Shown here piece by piece: positions 39,182 through 48,122 of a stretch of DNA of 64,000 nt (position 1 is the first letter of the stretch; each line of letters opens with the position of its first letter). The stretch comes from Myroides odoratimimus. Its GTDB lineage: Bacteria > Bacteroidota > Bacteroidia > Flavobacteriales > Flavobacteriaceae. The DNA lies in assembly GCF_001485415.1 (NCBI RefSeq), contig NZ_BCMQ01000002.1:1-64000 (forward strand), read 5' to 3'. The notes under the pieces were generated by a model. It was given only the letters and a program-made list of their open reading frames with translations, did not search any database and was not told the DNA's origin. Made by a program: the position numbers and the translations under genes.

Positions 39182-40513
39182 TCACAACACTAAACTTACT
39201 AGTTTCTCATTTACTTGGTCAAAGTTGAATGACGTGTACACACGGTCAAACTCTCCTTTGATTGCTTCATTCATCAGGTTACCTACACTACCTTCATGTG
39301 TATGGTTTACCTCTTTTGACGGTTGATAAGTACCTGCCTCTATCGACAGCCCTATCTCTTTATATGCTTCTCTAAAAGGCATCCCCTTTAGTACATAATC
39401 ATTCACTACCTCAACGCTAAACAAATAGTCGTATTTCGGATCGCTTAATATCTCTTTATTCACCTCTATATTGTCCAACATCAGTTTCAGAATATCTAAA
39501 CACTCTTTCAATGACGTGAAAGCTGGGAACAAGTTCTCTTTTAACAACTGAAGATCTCTGTGGTACCCAGAAGGCAAATTAGTGGTCATTAAGGCTATTT
39601 CGTTAGGCAAAGCTTGTATCTTATTACATCTTGAACGAATAAGCTCTAGAACGTCTGGATTCTTCTTATGTGGCATAATGCTCGAACCTGTAGTCAAATG
39701 ATCTGGGAATTTAATAAAGCCCATGTTCTGACTCATATACAAGCATCCGTCCATCGCGAACTTAGCTAAAGTAGCTGCAATAGCGCTTAACCCTTGTGCT
39801 AAAATACGCTCTGTCTTTCCCCTACCCATCTGTGCATAGACTACATTATAATTCATAGACTGAAAGCCTAATAAGTCTGTAGTCATCTGCCTGTTTAACG
39901 GAAATGATGAGCCATAACCTGCAGCCGATCCCAATGGGTTCTTATTCGTAACCTTCCACGCAGCTAGCATCATCTCTAAATCATCTACAAGGCTCTCTGC
40001 ATACGCCCCAAACCACAAGCCAAATGACGAAGGCATTGCGATTTGTAAATGCGTATAACCAGGCAGTAAAACATCTTTATACTGATTACTCAATTGCTGT
40101 AGTGTATCAAATACCTCCTTCGTCTTAGTAACTATCTCCTCTATCTCATGGCGAAAATAAAGTTTAAGGTCTACTAATACTTGGTCGTTTCTAGAACGTC
40201 CTGAATGTATCTTCTTACCAGCCTCACCTATTCTCCTAGTCAATAATAACTCTACTTGAGAGTGTATATCTTCTACATCATCTTCTATCTCGAATTGACC
40301 AGCTAATATCTCTTGGTATATCTGTTTTAATTCTTTTTGGATAAGGACTAAGTCTTCTGACTCTAATAACCCTATACTTTCTAACATCTGTGTATGTGCT
40401 AGTGACCCCATAACGTCAAATGCCGCTAGGTTCATATCTAACACTCTATCTTGTCCTACTGTGAAGGTATCTACATTACTATCTACAGTAGTGTTTTTTT
40501 GCCATAATTTCAT
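39182..40513 (-). CDS. argH: Argininosuccinate lyase
   Basis: Last step of arginine synthesis: argininosuccinate to arginine and fumarate. The 443-residue protein has the fumarase/aspartase-superfamily blocks: HSGRSRNDQV, PGYTHLQIAMP, NPLGSAAGYGSSFPLNR, and the signature TGSSIMPHKKNPD near residue 275. It is the last gene of the minus-strand arginine operon, 3 nt after the deacylase gene. Confidence 0.97.
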   Translation of the reverse strand: MKLWQKNTTVDSNVDTFTVGQDRVLDMNLAAFDVMGSLAHTQMLESIGLLESEDLVLIQKELKQIYQEILAGQFEIEDDVEDIHSQVELLLTRRIGEAGKKIHSGRSRNDQVLVDLKLYFRHEIEEIVTKTKEVFDTLQQLSNQYKDVLLPGYTHLQIAMPSSFGLWFGAYAESLVDDLEMMLAAWKVTNKNPLGSAAGYGSSFPLNRQMTTDLLGFQSMNYNVVYAQMGRGKTERILAQGLSAIAATLAKFAMDGCLYMSQNMGFIKFPDHLTTGSSIMPHKKNPDVLELIRSRCNKIQALPNEIALMTTNLPSGYHRDLQLLKENLFPAFTSLKECLDILKLMLDNIEVNKEILSDPKYDYLFSVEVVNDYVLKGMPFREAYKEIGLSIEAGTYQPSKEVNHTHEGSVGNLMNEAIKGEFDRVYTSFNFDQVNEKLVSLVL

Positions 40514-40516
40514 TTG

Positions 40517-41575
40517 CTACACGATTTGCGTTAACATCTCTATATACAAGGCTATTCCCTCTTCTATCTCCTTTACATAGACGAATTCGTCTGCTGTATG
40601 TGAGCGAGCAGAGTCGCCAGGTCCACACTTAAGCGATGGAATACTTAACAAAGCTTGGTCACTCGTAGTAGGTGAGCCATACGTCTCTCTACCTAGTGCT
40701 ATACCCGCCTGTACGATAGGGTGATCTTTAGCTATAGACGAAGGCTTTAATCGAGTAGAACGCGCATTGACCTCACAGTCTACATGCTGTCTCACCATCT
40801 CTAATACTTCTTCGTTTGTATAAGCATCTGTCACACGTACATCTACAACAAAATCACAAGTAGAAGGCACCACATTATGCTGTGTACCAGCATTGATCAT
40901 TGTCACACTCATCTTGATAGGTCCAAACTCTTCAGATACCTTAGGGAACTGATAGGTATTAAACCACTCTATATCTTTTATTGCTTTAAATATCGCATTG
41001 TCTCCTTCATTACGCGCTGCATGTCCTGAGCGCCCATGAGCTACACAGTCTAACACCATTAGTCCACGTTCTGCTACAGCTAAGTGCATTTGTGTAGGTT
41101 CTCCTACGATAGCGAATTCTAATTCTCCTAATTTAGGTATTACAAATTCTAAGCCATCATTCCCTGATATCTCTTCTTCTGCCGTAGCAGCGATACAGAA
41201 GTTATACTTCATTCCCTCTTTTTCATAGAAGTAAAGAAATGTAGCGATTAAAGAGACCAAGCACCCTCCAGCATCATTACTCCCCAATCCGAACAACTTG
41301 CCATCTATAATCTCAGGCTTAAAAGGGTCACGAGTATAGTCTTTATTTGGTCTCACAGTATCGTGGTGAGAGTTCAATAAGATCGTAGGCTTACTCGGAT
41401 CATAGTGCTTATTAAACGCCCATACATTAAAAAGCTCTCGGTGAATAGCTACTCCATGAGACTCTAAAAAGTTAGCGATTAGATCAGAAGTCAAATGCTC
41501 TTCTTTACTAAAAGATGGAGATGCTATAAGGCTTTCTAATAAAGCTATTGCCTGTTGTGATAAGTTGTCTTTCAT
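40517..41575 (-). CDS. argE: ArgE-like M20 acylcitrulline deacylase
   Basis: M20 zinc aminoacylase of 352 residues. Metal ligands are visible: HHDTV, the bridging Asp in GSNDAGG, the general base in AATAEEEI, GEPTQ, and a late His in ARSHTADE. Because the operon contains an ArgF' that acts on acylated ornithine, this enzyme most likely removes the acyl group from acetyl- or succinyl-citrulline rather than from acetylornithine. It is 3 nt from argH and 43 nt after argB. Confidence 0.9.
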   Translation of the reverse strand: MKDNLSQQAIALLESLIASPSFSKEEHLTSDLIANFLESHGVAIHRELFNVWAFNKHYDPSKPTILLNSHHDTVRPNKDYTRDPFKPEIIDGKLFGLGSNDAGGCLVSLIATFLYFYEKEGMKYNFCIAATAEEEISGNDGLEFVIPKLGELEFAIVGEPTQMHLAVAERGLMVLDCVAHGRSGHAARNEGDNAIFKAIKDIEWFNTYQFPKVSEEFGPIKMSVTMINAGTQHNVVPSTCDFVVDVRVTDAYTNEEVLEMVRQHVDCEVNARSTRLKPSSIAKDHPIVQAGIALGRETYGSPTTSDQALLSIPSLKCGPGDSARSHTADEFVYVKEIEEGIALYIEMLTQIV

Positions 41576-41618
41576 TGTGGTTTTATATAGTTATGGGTAG
41601 TTGTCTTGTTATCTTATA

Positions 41619-42398
41619 TTAGAGTTGAATCGTAGTACCAGCTTTTATATCTAATAGATCCTCTGCTTTCTTGATACATACCTTATCTACTCCTTGGTTG
41701 ACAGCCGCCAAAGCATTCTCTATCTTTGGCAACATACCATCAGCTATCACCCCTTGTTGTTTTAGTTGTGTAAAGTTCTCTTGATTAATGGTATTGATCA
41801 CAGAGTTCTCATCGTTAATGTCTTGCAGTACCCCTTTGCGCTCAAAGCAATATACTAAGGCTACTTTATACTTAGTAGCGAGAGCAACGGCTATATTAGA
41901 GGCAATAGTATCTGCATTGGTATTTAGTAGTTGGCCTTCCTTATCAGCCGTAATCGCAGAGAATACAGGACTAATCCCTATCTCTAACAATTGTTGTAAT
42001 CGAACCACATTCACATCGCTTGCCTCAAAGTCCCCTACATAGCCATAGTCTATCGGCTCAATAGGGCGTTTATGACTCTGTATCAGCTTAGCGTCTGCTC
42101 CTGAGATTCCCATCGCATCACAACCTCTTGCTTGAAGTTGTGCTGTGATTTGTTTGTTTATCAAACCTGCATACACCATTACAGCTATAGGCAACATCGC
42201 TTCGTCAGTGATACGACGCCCATTGACCATCTGAGTTTCTATCCCTAACTGCGCAGCCATACGCGTAGCTAATTTACCTCCACCATGTACTAAGACCTTA
42301 GGGCCTTCTATACGAGCATAGATGTCTAAAAAAGCGTTTAACGCAGACTCGTCATCGACGATATTACCTCCTATCTTAATAACTGTAAGGCTTTGCAT
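41619..42398 (-). CDS. argB: Acetylglutamate kinase-type enzyme
   Basis: Phosphorylates N-acylglutamate at the gamma-carboxylate. The 259-residue amino-acid-kinase-fold protein shows VIKIGGNIVDD, VHGGGKLATRMAAQLG, NGRRITDEA and NTNADTIASNIAVAL. It has no N-terminal helix of the arginine-inhibited hexameric type, so strong allosteric feedback by arginine is not evident. The gene is 3 nt downstream of argF'. Whether the acyl group is acetyl or succinyl depends on the whole pathway. Confidence 0.94.
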   Translation of the reverse strand: MQSLTVIKIGGNIVDDESALNAFLDIYARIEGPKVLVHGGGKLATRMAAQLGIETQMVNGRRITDEAMLPIAVMVYAGLINKQITAQLQARGCDAMGISGADAKLIQSHKRPIEPIDYGYVGDFEASDVNVVRLQQLLEIGISPVFSAITADKEGQLLNTNADTIASNIAVALATKYKVALVYCFERKGVLQDINDENSVINTINQENFTQLKQQGVIADGMLPKIENALAAVNQGVDKVCIKKAEDLLDIKAGTTIQL

Positions 42399-42401
42399 AA
42401 T

Positions 42402-43400
42402 TTATTGGTTTTTAAGCATTTCTTTTAATACAGCTTGTGCTGCCCATACTCTGTTCCCTGCTTCTTGTATCACGATAGCATGCTCGCTATCTAATACTTC
42501 TGACGAGATCACTAAATCACGTCTAACAGGTAGGCAGTGCATTACTTTGGCTTGGTTTGTTGCTTCTAATTTATCAAGAGTTAACATCCAAGACTTATCT
42601 GTACACGTTATCTGTCCGTAGTCTTCATAACTCGACCAGTTCTTTACATATACGAAGTCTGCATCTGCTAAAGCTTCATCCTGATTAGTAGTCACTGTAG
42701 CTCCTACTGTAAACTCCTCTTTCAGCGCATAACCCTCTGGATGAGTCACCACAAAGTCTACAAGACCTTCTGCCTGAGCTCTACACATCCACTCTGCGAA
42801 AGAGTTCGGTACTGCCTGCGGAAGTGCCTTAACGTGCGGTGCCCATGTCAATACTACTTTAGGTTTTTTGCCTTGAGGTACTAATTTATCTTGTGCAGCG
42901 TCATAATTATAATCGAAGTGCTCTACTATGGTGATCAAGTCTGTAAAGCTCTGTAGGGGATGTCTTGTCGCGCTCTCTAAGCTCACTACAGGTTTGCCAC
43001 AGTACTTAGCGAACTTGCTAAACAATTCTTCGCTATAGTCTTCCTCAGCATCTTTTAACCCAGGGAATGAACGAAGTCCTAATATATCACAGTACTCTCC
43101 CATCACAGCTGCAGCTTCTCTAATATGCTCTGCTGTATTTCCGTCCATCACTACGCCGTCTTTAGTCTCTAAAGCCCAACCGTCTGATGTCATATTCATC
43201 ACCATTACATTCATCCCTAAGTTAGCAGCAGCCTTCTGAGTACTCATCCTTGTACGCAAACTTGGATTTAAGAATACTAAACCTATTGTTTTGTGCTTGC
43301 CAAGAGTTTCTTCTGCAAAAGGGTTTGCCTTACACGCTAATGCGCTGTTTACTGCTTTAGATAGAGAAGGTATATCGTTAACGGAAAAAAATTGTTTCAT
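42402..43400 (-). CDS. argF': N-acylornithine carbamoyltransferase (ArgF')
   Basis: Transfers carbamoyl phosphate to N-acetyl- or N-succinyl-ornithine, giving acylcitrulline. The 332-residue protein from ATG 43400 (MKQFFSVNDIPSLSKAV) has the carbamoyl-phosphate motif NPSLRTRMSTQKAA in place of SxRTR of ordinary OTCase, the HPLQ motif, and HCLPVRRD. This is the Xanthomonas AOTCase/Bacteroides SOTCase type. By my alignment the residue that separates these (Glu in the acetyl type, Pro in the succinyl type) is Ala90 here. An upstream extension to 43463 was rejected as it would overlap argD. Confidence 0.93.
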   Translation of the reverse strand: MKQFFSVNDIPSLSKAVNSALACKANPFAEETLGKHKTIGLVFLNPSLRTRMSTQKAAANLGMNVMVMNMTSDGWALETKDGVVMDGNTAEHIREAAAVMGEYCDILGLRSFPGLKDAEEDYSEELFSKFAKYCGKPVVSLESATRHPLQSFTDLITIVEHFDYNYDAAQDKLVPQGKKPKVVLTWAPHVKALPQAVPNSFAEWMCRAQAEGLVDFVVTHPEGYALKEEFTVGATVTTNQDEALADADFVYVKNWSSYEDYGQITCTDKSWMLTLDKLEATNQAKVMHCLPVRRDLVISSEVLDSEHAIVIQEAGNRVWAAQAVLKEMLKNQ

Positions 43401-43413
43401 TGTAATTGTCTTT

Positions 43414-44553
43414 TTAGAATTGTTGTAATCTGTTGTTGAATTTATCCAAGAATAAATCTGCATCAGCTTGAGTCAGATTTAATGCTGGTAACAACCGAAT
43501 TACATTAGGGCTTGCATTACCCGTGAAGATGTGGTCTTTCACTAATAGTTCTTTACGAACCTCTTTTAACTCAGGAGCAAGGTCTATTCCAATCATCAGT
43601 CCTTTTCCTCTTACTTCCTGTATCTTGTCTAATTTCTTTAATTCATTGATTAAGTAATTTCCAACCTGTGCGGTATTTGCCATTAGGTTGTCTTGCTTCA
43701 TTACTTCTAATACAGATAATGCTGCTGCACATGCTAAGTGATTTCCTCCAAAAGTAGTTCCTAACTGTCCATGCCAAGGCTTAAACTGCTCTCCTATCGC
43801 TATTGCTCCAATAGGGAATCCATTCCCCATTCCTTTCGCCATCGTATAGATATCAGCACTCACTCCACCGTCATTCACTGCGTAGAAAGCCCCTGTACGT
43901 CCATATCCACACTGTACTTCATCTGCGATAAATACTGCATCATATTGCGTAGTAAGACTTCTGATTTTCGCTAAGAAGCTATCTGTAGCTACCTTAATCC
44001 CACCTACACCTTGTATTCCTTCGATAATCACTGCTGTTACTTCATCACCGTAAGATGCGAAAGCTTGTTCAAGAGCTTGCTCATCGTTAAAAGGCAAGAA
44101 CACAATGTTCTCTGTTTGATTGACTGGGGCAACTATCTTTGGGTTATCAGTAGCAGAAACAGCAAGAGAAGTTCTCCCATGAAAAGCTTTATCAAAAGCG
44201 ATAACTTTCTTTTTACCATTATAAAAAGAAGCTAATTTTAAAGCATTTTCATTTGCTTCTGCTCCTGAATTACACAAAAACAATTGATAATTGTCCATCC
44301 CAGCTACTTCCCCTAATAAGGCAGCTAATTGCTGCTGAAGAGGGATTTCTATAGAATTAGAATAAAATCCGATTTTGTTTAATTGGTCCGTTAATCTCGC
44401 TACATAGTGCGGATGAGTATGTCCGATAGAGATCACAGCGTGCCCTCCATATAAGTCTAAATACTCTTGACCCGTGCTGTCATATACTCTACTCCCTAAT
44501 CCTTTTACAATCTCGATAGGGTTAAGTGGGTATACATCATATAATTTCATCAT
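43414..44553 (-). CDS. argD: Acylornithine aminotransferase
   Basis: PLP enzyme making acylornithine from the acylglutamate semialdehyde and glutamate. The 379-residue class III aminotransferase shows DLYGGHAVISIGHTHP, FCNSGAEANENALKLA, the Asp of FIADEVQCGYGRTG, and the PLP lysine in TMAKGMGNGFPIGAI. It lies 12 nt after argC and 13 nt before argF'. Two adjacent ATGs (44553 and 44550) are possible starts. Confidence 0.95.
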   Translation of the reverse strand: MMKLYDVYPLNPIEIVKGLGSRVYDSTGQEYLDLYGGHAVISIGHTHPHYVARLTDQLNKIGFYSNSIEIPLQQQLAALLGEVAGMDNYQLFLCNSGAEANENALKLASFYNGKKKVIAFDKAFHGRTSLAVSATDNPKIVAPVNQTENIVFLPFNDEQALEQAFASYGDEVTAVIIEGIQGVGGIKVATDSFLAKIRSLTTQYDAVFIADEVQCGYGRTGAFYAVNDGGVSADIYTMAKGMGNGFPIGAIAIGEQFKPWHGQLGTTFGGNHLACAAALSVLEVMKQDNLMANTAQVGNYLINELKKLDKIQEVRGKGLMIGIDLAPELKEVRKELLVKDHIFTGNASPNVIRLLPALNLTQADADLFLDKFNNRLQQF

Positions 44554-44565
44554 AATTAATCGTTG

Positions 44566-45537
44566 TTAGAAAGCCGAAGCTTTTAGTTGTAAACCTGTTT
44601 TTTCGTCTAATCCGAATAGCAAGTTCATGTTTTGAACAGCTTGTCCGCTTGCTCCTTTCAGTAAGTTATCTATCGCACTAGTCACTAATACATCATTTTC
44701 ATTCTTTACGATAGACACCAAGCATTTGTTCGTATTTACCACTTGCTTTAGGTCGATGCCCTTTTTACTTACGTGTGTAAATGGATGCGATGCATAATAC
44801 GTATTGTACATGGTATAAAGCTCATCTTCTGTCAAAGTCGATTCAAACATCACACTTGCAAAAATCCCTCTAGCGAAGTCTCCTCTCTCTGGGATAAACT
44901 TAATGTTCTGTACATAGTCAGATTGTAGTTGTACAAGGCTTTCTCCTATCTCGCTAAGGTGTTGGTGAGTGAAGGCTTTATATACTGATATATTATTCGC
45001 TCTCCAACTAAAGTGAGATGTAGTAGATAAACTCTGTCCAGCTCCTGTAGACCCTGTCAAAGCATTGATATAAACAGACTCAGGCATCTTAGCTGCATGT
45101 GCTAAAGGCAACAAGGCTAACTGTAATGCTGTAGCAAAACAACCTGGATTAGCTATATAATTCGCTTTCTTTATCTTCTCTTTATTCAACTCTGGCAAGC
45201 CGTAAACGAACTCTCCTGCTGTATCTTTTAATCTAAAGTCTTGGCTGAGGTCTATAATCTTAATCTCCTTATCAATGTCATTCTCTGCTAAGAACACTTT
45301 AGAATCTCCATGCCCCATACACAAAAACAATACATCGATATCCTCCATCAACACATTCGTAAAATGTAAGTCTGTATCTCCGAATAGGTCACTGTGAATC
45401 TCATATACCGGCTTACCAGCGCTACTGTTAGAGTGTACAAAGGTGATCTCTACTGCGGGATGAGGTAAGAGAAGTCTCAACAACTCTCCTCCCGTATAGC
45501 CAGCACCTCCTACTATTCCTACTTTTATTGTCTGCAT
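44566..45537 (-). CDS. argC: N-acetyl-gamma-glutamyl-phosphate reductase
   Basis: NADPH-dependent reduction of acylglutamyl phosphate to the semialdehyde. The 323-residue protein has the N-terminal GIVGGAGYTGGELLRLLLPHP nucleotide motif and the active-site block ANPGCFATALQLALLPL with the catalytic Cys. It sits 4 nt after argG and 12 nt before argD. Confidence 0.96.
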   Translation of the reverse strand: MQTIKVGIVGGAGYTGGELLRLLLPHPAVEITFVHSNSSAGKPVYEIHSDLFGDTDLHFTNVLMEDIDVLFLCMGHGDSKVFLAENDIDKEIKIIDLSQDFRLKDTAGEFVYGLPELNKEKIKKANYIANPGCFATALQLALLPLAHAAKMPESVYINALTGSTGAGQSLSTTSHFSWRANNISVYKAFTHQHLSEIGESLVQLQSDYVQNIKFIPERGDFARGIFASVMFESTLTEDELYTMYNTYYASHPFTHVSKKGIDLKQVVNTNKCLVSIVKNENDVLVTSAIDNLLKGASGQAVQNMNLLFGLDEKTGLQLKASAF

Positions 45538-45541
45538 AATT

Positions 45542-46738
45542 CTATTGGTCTTGGTTATTAACTTTGTGCCAAATCATGACTTGGTTACCAAAGATCTTAG
45601 AGAACCCTTTTACATCTTCGCCTGTCCATGCATTGTTCATCTCTCCATAGCTACCAAACTTATTAGACATTAGGTCATGCGCTGACTCTATACCTATCAC
45701 TACAAAACGGTGTGGGTGTAACTCTACGATTACCTTACCACTTACAGTCTGCTGTGTACTGCTCAAGAATGCTTCCATATCTCTCATTACTGGATCGTGG
45801 AACTGTCCTTCGTGTAAGTAGTTACCATAGAATGATGCTAACTGTTCTTTCCAGCTCAGTTGCCACTTCGTCAACGTATGTTTCTCTAAAGTGTGGTGTG
45901 CTTTTACCAAGATGATAGGTCCTGCTGCTTCAAAACCAACTCTCCCTTTAATCCCGATAATCGTGTCTCCTACGTGGATATCTCTACCGATACCGAATGG
46001 TTGAGCTAAGTCTTGTAACTGTTGGATAACCTCAGTAGGTTTTAGTTTCTTACCATTTAAAGCTACTGGCTCACCCTTCTCAAAAGTAATCTCCACTGTC
46101 TCAGGAGTTGCTTTAGTCACTGGTGTAGGCCATGCCTCTTCTGGTAAATATAGATTAGAGGTTAGGGTTTCTTTTCCACCTACTGAAGTTCCCCATAAAC
46201 CTTTATTAATTGAATATTTTGCTTTCTCTGCATTGATTTCGACACCGTGTTTTTGTAAGAACTCGATCTCTTCTTCTCTGCTTAATTTTAGATCTCTAAT
46301 TGGCGTAATAATCTGTACACTAGGCACCAATATATTAAAGATCATATCAAAACGCACTTGGTCATTCCCTGCCCCTGTACTACCGTGAGCTACCGCTTCG
46401 GCACCAATCTTCTTAGCGTAGTTAGCAATAGCTGTAGCCTGACACACACGCTCAGCACTTACTGATAATGGGTAAGTAGCATTCTTCAATACGTTACCAA
46501 ATATCAAGTACTTCACACTGTCATTATAGTAGTCTTCTGTCTCATCGATAGTCGTGTGAGAAGCAACTCCTAAAGCATACGCTTTCTCTTCGATAGCCTT
46601 CACTTCTACTGCATCAAATCCACCTGTGTTTACCACTACAGAGTGTACTTCATACCCTAATTCTTCTTTTAAATAAATTACACAGAAGCTAGTGTCTAAT
46701 CCTCCGCTAAATGCTAATACAACTTTCTTATTATTCAT
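45542..46738 (-). CDS. argG: Argininosuccinate synthase
   Basis: ATP-dependent condensation of citrulline with aspartate. The 398-residue protein begins with the PP-loop ATPase motif LAFSGGLDTSFCVIYLKEELGYEV and continues with AHGSTGAGNDQVRFD and GRDIHVGDTIIGIKGR. It is the second gene of the operon, 18 nt after the GNAT gene. Confidence 0.97.
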   Translation of the reverse strand: MNNKKVVLAFSGGLDTSFCVIYLKEELGYEVHSVVVNTGGFDAVEVKAIEEKAYALGVASHTTIDETEDYYNDSVKYLIFGNVLKNATYPLSVSAERVCQATAIANYAKKIGAEAVAHGSTGAGNDQVRFDMIFNILVPSVQIITPIRDLKLSREEEIEFLQKHGVEINAEKAKYSINKGLWGTSVGGKETLTSNLYLPEEAWPTPVTKATPETVEITFEKGEPVALNGKKLKPTEVIQQLQDLAQPFGIGRDIHVGDTIIGIKGRVGFEAAGPIILVKAHHTLEKHTLTKWQLSWKEQLASFYGNYLHEGQFHDPVMRDMEAFLSSTQQTVSGKVIVELHPHRFVVIGIESAHDLMSNKFGSYGEMNNAWTGEDVKGFSKIFGNQVMIWHKVNNQDQ

Positions 46739-46756: not shown

Positions 46757-47437
46757 TTAAAATAGATGTGTTTTTTTGACTGTTTTCTTCAATTGCATTT
46801 GCAATCGTTTCAGCAATGAGTACTTTTTCTGCATATTTTTAAGTCTCTCTTTTGCTTTGGTCTTTTGGTCTATTTTATTCCGAAGCTCTTTTTCTTTATC
46901 TTCTGGGTTCCAAAGCATGGCTGTACAAAGACAGTTCTTCTTCTCTTTACTCTGTAAGATTTGGAAGTTTACACAACTCTCACACCCTTTCCAGAACATC
47001 TCATCCTGAGTAAGTTCTGAGTAAGGCACAGGTTCATAGCCTAAATCTGAGTTGATCTTCATAACAGCAAACCCTGTAGTTAGACCGAATATTTTAGCCT
47101 TTGGATATTTCTTTCTAGATAATTCAAAAACACATTTTTTAATAGCTTTTGCCAGTCCCTCTTTTCTAAAAACAGGGTTCACAATCAGTCCAGAATTGGC
47201 TACATAATCACCGTGACTCCAAGTCTCTATGTAACAAAAACCAGCCCAAGTACCATCAACATGTAGGGCGATAACAGCCTTACCTTCAACCATTTTATTG
47301 GCAACGTACTCTGGTTTTCTTCTAGCAATACCAGTCCCTCTAGCAAGAGCTGACTGAGCCATTTCTTCACAAATTTGTTCCGCATATCCTACGTGTGTTT
47401 CATTCGCAGGAATTACGATAAACTGATTTGAATTCAT
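46757..47437 (-). CDS. GNAT acyltransferase, probable N-acylglutamate-forming first enzyme
   Basis: First structural gene of the arginine operon, 226 residues. Residues about 5-140 are a GNAT fold (GLIVNPVFRKEGLAKAIKKCVFEL is the acyl-CoA loop). After it comes a Cys cluster, CESC and, 13 residues later, CLC, then a very basic Lys-rich tail. No argA or argJ is present, so acylation of glutamate by this protein is the natural inference; acetyl- or succinyl-CoA could be the donor. The Cys residues might bind a metal. Confidence 0.8.
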   Translation of the reverse strand: MNSNQFIVIPANETHVGYAEQICEEMAQSALARGTGIARRKPEYVANKMVEGKAVIALHVDGTWAGFCYIETWSHGDYVANSGLIVNPVFRKEGLAKAIKKCVFELSRKKYPKAKIFGLTTGFAVMKINSDLGYEPVPYSELTQDEMFWKGCESCVNFQILQSKEKKNCLCTAMLWNPEDKEKELRNKIDQKTKAKERLKNMQKKYSLLKRLQMQLKKTVKKTHLF

Positions 47438-47546
47438 TTCAAAACAAGTGATTAAGAATCAAACGAGCCAAGATATTGATACCGAATAGGTACAATAATC
47501 CTCAGACTGTCTGAAAAGCATTAAAAATCAATGATATATGTACAGA

Positions 47547-47570
47547 TATAATGCCAAAAAAGGCATTATA
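47547..47570 (-). other. Perfect hairpin in the arginine operon leader
   Basis: On the minus strand TATAATGCC and GGCATTATA form a perfect 9-bp stem with a loop of six T, between the leader ORF and the GNAT gene. It lacks a following U-run, so it is not a standard terminator. It could form part of a leader switch or stabilise the processed mRNA. Confidence 0.55.
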
Positions 47571-47572
47571 CT

Positions 47573-47598
47573 AAAAAAAGGCTAAAAAAGATTAAGCC
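47573..47598 (-). terminator. Candidate attenuator terminator of the arginine operon
   Basis: On the minus strand GGCT (47598-47595), then an 11-nt loop, AGCC (47583-47580), then seven T (47579-47573). The stem can be lengthened by two A-U pairs past one mismatch. The 5' arm consists of the last codons of the leader ORF (last base of Arg CGG plus Ala GCT). The stem is short, so strength is uncertain. Confidence 0.4.
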
Positions 47599-47699
47599 CG
47601 GGCGCGAGATGACCGCGATGTAGACAATGAGAAAACCGCAACAGTTGCTAAGGCAATGTTGTTAGAGATAAAAGTAATATTTAAATCGGTTCTCTTCAT
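47592..47699 (-). CDS. Candidate arginine operon leader peptide (35 codons)
   Basis: A short ORF from ATG 47699 to TAA 47592, beginning MKRTDLNITF and ending STSRSSRARA. Four of 35 residues are Arg, three of them among the last eight, encoded by CGG (47613-47615), CGC (47604-47606) and CGG (47598-47600). In serS of this window I see AGA, CGT and some CGC for Arg but no CGG, so CGG looks rare. The ORF lies on the operon strand, about 25 nt after a promoter-like pair, 154 nt before the GNAT gene, and overlaps a terminator-like hairpin. An arginine-sensing attenuation peptide is my inference. Confidence 0.55.
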   Translation of the reverse strand: MKRTDLNITFISNNIALATVAVFSLSTSRSSRARA

Positions 47700-47729
47700 A
47701 AGTTTTATAACTGCTTAAATAAGCATGAA

Positions 47730-47761
47730 CAAAGTTTTCTAATTAAAATTGGATTATGCAA
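47730..47761 (-). promoter_or_regulatory. Candidate promoter of the arginine operon
   Basis: On the minus strand TTG (47761-47759) as -33 is followed after 21 nt by AAACTTTG (47737-47730), seven of eight with TAnnTTTG. Transcription would begin about 25 nt before the leader ORF. Confidence 0.45.
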
Positions 47762-48051: not shown

Positions 48052-48099
48052 TAAAAAAAGCCCTATTCAATGTCTCTTATAATAAGACACTGAATAGGG
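48052..48099 (-). terminator. Terminator of apt
   Basis: AGCCCTATTCA.TGTCT and its complement AGACA.TGAATAGGGCT form a stem of about 16 bp with one mismatch (48059-48104 region). The minus strand continues into a T-run (the plus strand has seven A before the left arm). It lies just past the apt stop codon. Confidence 0.8.
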
Positions 48100-48122
48100 C
48101 TATAAGTATGTTTTTTATCGTA

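Follow-up and report, generated by a model that had tools for sequence, protein, structure and literature searches.

Introduction

How is arginine biosynthesis controlled in Myroides odoratimimus, whose genome gave no match to the arginine repressor ArgR (PF02863)? In the window, by which we mean the whole stretch of 64,000 nucleotides that was analysed, the genes for this pathway form an operon of eight, and a preliminary description had placed a 35-codon open reading frame (ORF) ending in SRSSRARA upstream of them, at 47699-47592. The window sequence bears this out, and the elements to which we refer below are as follows (all on the minus strand).

39182-46738, minus: argG, argC, argD, argF'-like, argB, argE/dapE-like and argH (NCBIfam models)
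46757-47437, minus: gene 1 of the operon, encoding 226 aa (unmatched by Pfam and NCBIfam models)
47546-47571, minus: HP2, stem GTATAATGCC/GGCATTATAT directly downstream of HP1 and its T-run (fold comparison with relatives)
47573-47579, minus: run of seven T behind HP1, a possible weak intrinsic terminator tail (window sequence)
47579-47599, minus: HP1, whose 5' arm is the last Arg and Ala codons, GGGCT (47599-47595) with AGCCT (47583-47579) (sequence and swap test)
47592-47699, minus: candidate arginine leader ORF, 35 codons, ending in SRSSRARA and a stop codon (window sequence and relatives)
47603-47617, minus: HP0, a small hairpin inside the Arg codons, CGCGG/TCGCG (predicted fold)
47730-47761, minus: promoter-like element of Bacteroidota type, TTG (47761-47759), 21 nt, AAACTTTG (47737-47730) (window sequence)
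48060-48100, minus: strong terminator behind apt, the gene upstream (terminator scan; apt from a protein model match)

Results

The operon, a promoter-like element and a candidate leader ORF

Seven of the eight operon proteins were named by NCBIfam models as ArgG, ArgC, ArgD-like, N-acetylornithine-carbamoyltransferase-like (argF'-like), ArgB, ArgE/DapE-like and ArgH, the scores of the argD, argF' and argE matches being below the curated cut-offs. The product of the first gene had zero matches among Pfam and NCBIfam models. It may be acetyltransferase-like and might carry out the first step of arginine synthesis. Its relatives occur in 169 of 392 genomes of the phylum, and the nearest named ones, among the matches listed, belong to Myroides.

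The strong terminator behind apt suggests that the leader and the operon form a separate transcript. The promoter-like TTG-N21-AAACTTTG described earlier is present upstream of the ORF, its box one letter away from a perfect TAnnTTTG; of the 82 leaders tested, 43 have a perfect box no more than 100 nt ahead of their ATG, against 10.5% of shuffles.

The ORF translates as MKRTDLNITFISNNIALATVAVFSLSTSRSSRARA followed by a stop codon, and its 3' end reads TCG CGG TCA TCT CGC GCC CGG GCT TAA, in which the last three Arg codons, as had been reported, are CGG, CGC and CGG. A gap of 154 nt separates its end from the first operon gene. The peptide is without a Pfam match, and the pattern CGGNNNNNNCGSNNNCGGGCNTAR occurs once in the M. 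odoratimimus genome.

Recurrence of arginine-ended leaders

To score a region as carrying an Arg-ended ORF, we required an ATG start, a length of 12-70 codons, a position inside the 330 nt before the gene with an end at least 60 nt before it, and at least three Arg among the last ten residues. Comparison of the leader region across relatives, the check that the preliminary description had proposed, establishes that such an ORF, with its Arg-rich end, recurs: in 80 named loci from a first-gene search, among the matches listed, 75 carry it upstream of the first operon gene, compared with 2/80 on the reverse strand and 40/1600 shuffles (2.5%). Four of the five misses (L039, L041, L042 and L044) do show a leader-like ORF, which is poorer in Arg or starts with a different codon; no leader-like ORF was seen upstream at the fifth, L097. 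A second set comprised 80 upstream regions from 65 genera of the phylum, picked from the first-gene matches listed and leaving out weaker ones, some families among them; here 47 regions passed and 33 failed the strict test, with controls of 4/80 on the reverse strand and 77/1600 in shuffles (4.8%). Split by kinship, 34 of 49 regions from the window's own class and 13 of 31 from other classes passed. Ten of these 13 belong to family f38, in which 10/10 passed, and the remaining three, one each in three families, may be at chance level. Within the M. odoratimimus genome itself, 2 of 145 sampled upstream regions passed the same test, one of them being the arg leader.

The peptide ends differ by clade: SRSSRSRA in Myroides, RRPILPRA in Sphingobacterium and Parapedobacter, SRRRLFIPRV in Mucilaginibacter, IPRRR in part of family f38 and TRRRP in other Flavobacteriaceae. 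Flavobacterium leaders (TSPEVR type, n = 15) have a lower Arg content. By eye, some Flavobacteriaceae (L156, L157, L158, L164, L165 and L208) have a tandem pair of apparent Arg-ended frames upstream of the gene; behind the second comes a hairpin whose loop is AGGTGAGTCC or a close variant.

Codon choice and signs of translation

The suggestion that CGG is rare in neighbouring genes prompted a proposed codon count, and the count upholds it: CGG makes up 24 of 4394 Arg codons, or 0.2 per 1000 of 122,379 codons, in 327 ORFs of at least 150 aa from the window and 20 further stretches (roughly 461 kb out of 4.23 Mb, with ORFs taken from either strand and a few of them possibly spurious). Across 15 Myroides-type leaders, by comparison, 40 of the 45 Arg codons among the last 14 codons are CGG, which accounts for 1.5% of 582 Arg codons in the flanking genes. 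The choice is another codon elsewhere, CGA contributing 109 of 151 leader Arg codons in Sphingobacterium and Parapedobacter (8.9% in flanking genes) and 36 of 60 in the Mucilaginibacter/Pedobacter set (5.8%). In each of the three clade sets compared, the leader Arg codons are therefore the rare ones of the respective clade, and comparison thus establishes the rare-codon choice; a CGA-CGA pair is invariant in 38/38 leaders of 44 aa.

Among the M. odoratimimus tRNA loci scanned (most of 78 matches, the few omitted being partial ones at contig ends and same-score duplicates), tRNA-Arg genes with the anticodons UCU (three), ACG (two) and UCG (one) were present and none with CCG. The tRNA that reads the CGG codons of the leader is therefore probably the one with the anticodon UCG, encoded by a single gene.

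Differences at codon positions 1, 2 and 3 number 2264, 664 and 4123 over all pairs in codons 31-44. In codons 2-30 they number 162, 171 and 319 between close pairs and are nearly flat over all pairs, and pN/pS of the N-terminal part is 0.92 over all pairs and 0.39 in 37 close pairs. The third-position excess in codons 31-44 and in the N-terminal close pairs looks like the pattern of a translated ORF.

RNA structure in the Myroides-type leaders

The hairpin built from the last Arg and Ala codons and followed by seven T, a central element of the earlier proposal, is present as HP1. It is weak (-5.7 kcal/mol) and absent from the output of a terminator scan that admits loops of 3-8 nt. Where the last codon has become GCA (L039) or GGA (L043), the 3' arm of HP1 is altered in step. 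When 3' arms were exchanged among 15 species in a narrow test, the observed energy was reached in 1/5000 permutations, which establishes covariation between HP1 and the codons for a test window that was set post hoc, after a broad test and guided by the hairpin of the preliminary description; the broad swap test was not significant for the Myroides types (306/2000). In an unbiased pairing scan of these leaders (family-wise P 0.027), HP1 ranked second, behind one unexplained window. The scan identified no antiterminator helix in the Myroides types and no pairing of the leader with the start region of the first gene (family-wise P 0.2).

A run of at least five T follows HP1 in 8 of the 15 Myroides-type leaders (the window and 7 of 14 relatives) and is absent in seven, and the usual terminator rule (a stem of at least 5, a loop of 3-8, then a T-rich stretch) applies to 1 of 15 spacers, the window not being that one. 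The spacers of these leaders have C and G fractions of 0.14 each. The HP2 stem is kept with different letters in relatives. Swap tests of HP2 and of a hairpin in family f38 gave 0/5000 each and are biased, because the arms were chosen by folding each own sequence; the mean folding energies relative to shuffles (z -7.6 for HP2, -5.0 for f38) are alone independent of that choice.

Pairings in Sphingobacterium and Parapedobacter

Three pairings of the leader codons were found in this set. In P1, a segment behind the stop codon pairs with the codons for Leu-Pro plus the opening base of the final Arg codon. K joins Arg-Ala-stop to the loop of a hairpin some 40 nt beyond the stop codon. P3 links the Arg-Arg-Pro codons to a motif roughly nine nt ahead of the first gene, which reads GGGTCG, AGGTCG or nearly so. 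Swap tests gave 0/5000 permutations for each (n = 33, 34 and 28), and a wider test of P3 gave 9/2000. The unbiased scan placed P1 and K on top and P3 behind an unexplained window, the top windows having a family-wise count of 0/300.

In an alignment of 33 sequences covering P1, K and a second hairpin, with P3 not counted, 95.8% of cells are paired, compared with at most 45.2% in slid controls, and 63 cells have both sides changed, compared with 17.0 (sd 5.2) in shuffles; further pair types are no more numerous than in shuffles (238/500). At one position of K, 20 of the 33 sequences have A-U and 12 have G-C, and the accompanying codon change, CGA to CGG, is synonymous. All 35 named RPILPRA leaders, among the matches listed, have GGTC in the last 30 nt ahead of the start; so does one of 11 other PRA/PRT leaders, a group whose Daejeonella type is without it, and none of 36 other named leaders does. 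This restriction confines P3 to the Sphingobacterium/Parapedobacter set. The terminator rule applies to 6 of 35 spacers here, and a run of at least five T occurs anywhere in 19 of 35.

The peptide itself is also conserved in places. Among 37 distinct leaders of 44 aa, P-[VI]-L-R, which lies outside the RNA pairs, is kept as amino acids with varied codons: P, L and R at positions -13, -11 and -10 occur in 36, 34 and 35 of the 37, and codons 31-35 have a pS of 0.68 and a pN of 0.28 over all pairs. Conservation of this kind outside the pairs would be compatible with a part played by the nascent peptide.

Other clades

HP1-type swap tests were not significant in Mucilaginibacter/Pedobacter (1386/2000), family f38 (490/2000) and the RRP type of Flavobacteriaceae (1040/2000), and gave 67/2000 in family f18 (n = 7). 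The pairing scan found leader pairings downstream of the stop codon in f38 (n = 6, family-wise P 0.01) and Flavobacterium (n = 15, 0/300); its family-wise P was 0.06 in Mucilaginibacter/Pedobacter and 0.17 in the RRP type. No start-region pairing was found in Mucilaginibacter/Pedobacter, f38, the f1 RRP type or Flavobacterium (family-wise P 0.56, 0.32, 0.43 and 0.95, respectively). The spacer of f38 is C-rich and G-poor (C 0.27, G 0.11). By eye, a stem in family f18 (L136, L141, L144 and L149), CTGATAGG/CCTATCAG or CTGACAGG/CCTGTCAG, starts at the leader stop codon.

Searches for ArgR, structured RNAs and other leaders

PF02863, the C-terminal domain of ArgR, had no match in 79 of the 80 Bacteroidota genomes searched, M. 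odoratimimus included. The sole match, in the leader-positive genome G091, scored 25.0 bits (at the cut-off) and contains an internal stop. With the same model, a control search of 14 named genomes detected ArgR in eight, among them Bacteroides ihuae. Since ArgR is missing from leader-positive and leader-negative genomes alike, we regard its absence as context and not as a correlation.

A known structured RNA (T-box, riboswitch or Rfam leader) was considered for the leader region and rejected, no Rfam 15 family matching it at gathering score. At that score the window's matches consist of one tRNA; a lax threshold gave five matches in the leader region, all far below gathering scores, and eight related loci gave none.

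Two further leader-like ORFs were observed in the M. odoratimimus genome. A His leader ORF, MYPSQLHHHHHSTCTLTSW and a stop codon, precedes hisG on contig C11 (L211:1158-1217), with a terminator-like hairpin and T-run in the spacer. A Thr/Ser-rich ORF ending in TSTVTTITLTSSSSSSISTL and a stop codon precedes a thrA-like gene on contig C8 (L217:325-471), with a small hairpin, seen by eye, across its stop codon.

Discussion

We consider it likely that the ORF at 47699-47592 is a cis-acting, arginine-sensing leader peptide that controls the arg operon by ribosome-mediated attenuation, because of the conserved Arg end, the rare-codon choice, the covariation of HP1 in the narrow test, the promoter-like element and the absence of an ArgR match; the His and Thr leader ORFs of the same genome were also counted in its favour. 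Against it stand the broad HP1 test, the second rank of HP1 in the pairing scan, the HP1-type tests in other clades, the nearly flat codon positions of the N-terminal part and the 33 phylum regions that failed the ORF test. From the sequence comparisons we infer that the leader is transcribed, that ribosomes stall on it and in which direction it controls the operon. Transcription would start just upstream of the ORF, as the promoter motif suggests. When charged tRNA-Arg is ample, the ribosome would complete the peptide and depart, the freed last codons would fold into HP1, and expression of the operon would go down. When charged tRNA-Arg is scarce, the ribosome would pause at CGC and CGG, the final two Arg codons, and cover the 5' arm of HP1, and the operon would be on. 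A ribosome reaches about 12 nt from its A-site codon. With this reach, a stall at CGC or at the final CGG would cover the arm, and one at the first CGG would fall about 3 nt short, so that the earlier claim that a ribosome stalled on these Arg codons would cover the arm holds for two of the three.

How the state of the leader would be read out in M. odoratimimus is a more delicate matter. The preliminary description had HP1 and its T-run acting as a terminator, and intrinsic, premature termination at the U-run is a reading that we hold tentatively, at slightly below an even chance. It draws on the seven T directly behind HP1, on the runs of at least five T in 7 of 14 relatives, and on the terminator-like hairpin and T-run of the M. 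odoratimimus his leader; the weakness of HP1, a U-run present in 8 of 15 leaders and hence not conserved, and a terminator rule that applies to 1 of 15 speak against it. The same observations have led us to weigh a readout in which the sensor is unchanged and HP1, HP2 and the downstream structure decide on translation of the first gene or on Rho-dependent termination, a prospect that is likewise close to even without reaching it. The pairing that extends to the start region in Sphingobacterium and Parapedobacter and the C-rich, G-poor spacer of family f38 favour this second readout. The Myroides types themselves offer less to it, as no start-region pairing was found there and their spacers are not C-rich. 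For Sphingobacterium and Parapedobacter, the most likely readout is translational, a lock that a stalled ribosome would open, because the Arg-Arg-Pro codons are predicted to pair just ahead of the first gene's start. The broader proposal would be that Bacteroidota lineages lacking ArgR place arginine biosynthesis under Arg-codon leaders, and that in Sphingobacterium and Parapedobacter the RRPILPRA end and its stop codon are held in a pseudoknotted lock (P1, K and P3), a translational attenuator which could be opened only by an arginine-starved, stalled ribosome; taken as a whole, we put it forward as a possibility that may fail somewhat more readily than it holds.

The nature of the sensor itself was also weighed. 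The nascent leader might be an arrest peptide that senses arginine or strengthens the pause, its amino-acid sequence mattering beside the charging of tRNA-Arg, and the retention of P-[VI]-L-R with varied codons in the 37 Sphingobacterium-type leaders, together with the low pN of codons 31-35, would fit such a role. We nonetheless judge it improbable, as the peptide ends vary from clade to clade with Arg codons as their common element, and the choice of rare codons suits the sensing of tRNA charging. That the ORF is a chance frame, or a small protein with a function of its own, is very improbable indeed: its N-terminal part is weakly conserved at long range, as such an account would have it, but its placement, its frame and its Arg end are found repeatedly among the sampled regions. 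An unconserved N terminus combined with covariation between codons and RNA structure fits the cis-acting leader that we favour.

If the arginine leader reading is true, many Bacteroidota in which ArgR was not found would have a specific control by arginine, and arginine biosynthesis would join the operons run by leader-peptide attenuation. It would also provide a clear case of clade-specific rare codons and codon-overlapping RNA helices evolving together.

Comparison with known systems

The preliminary description knew of no ribosome-mediated attenuation by arginine in Bacteroidota. A full-text literature search agrees with regard to arginine, in that no arginine leader peptide in this phylum was found among the titles, abstracts and selected passages of the matches listed. 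Leader-peptide attenuation as such is a different case, since the passage on Flavobacterium psychrophilum in PMC9723704 reports clues of it at amino-acid biosynthesis operons. The likeness lies in the family, Flavobacteriaceae, and in the kind of operon; the passage names neither the operons nor an amino acid, and arginine may or may not be included. Leader-like small ORFs are mentioned for Bacteroides thetaiotaomicron (PMC7366714), and leader ORFs in general are treated in PMC4833913, in passages in which arginine does not occur.

The enterobacterial his and trp attenuators share with the window's leader a short ORF with codons for the operon's product and a hairpin before the first gene, and their codon choice matters, as here, according to the passages of PMC1183508. 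The leader in the window differs in that it concerns arginine, in that direct occlusion of the 5' arm of HP1 is proposed and no antiterminator helix was found, and in that its stem is weak and its U-tail not conserved.

With respect to sensing, the closest systems among the matches listed are orf34 of speF in Salmonella and rbfL in Staphylococcus aureus. In the passages on the former (PMC6386406), Arg codons in the leader respond to arginine through ribosome pausing, and the leader RNA pairs with the downstream ribosome-binding site, as we propose for Sphingobacterium and Parapedobacter. SpeF, however, makes putrescine from ornithine, whereas the window's leader precedes genes of arginine biosynthesis, and the speF leader is a DUF2618 (PF10940) peptide, in contrast to the window's leader, which has no Pfam match. 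The rbfL leader peptide, as described in the passages of PMC13009471, resembles the one studied here in having a rare Arg codon that responds to the arginine supply. There, the paused ribosome blocks the downstream ribosome-binding site and a biofilm regulator is lowered, whereas a pause on the Arg codons of the M. odoratimimus leader is predicted to induce biosynthesis.
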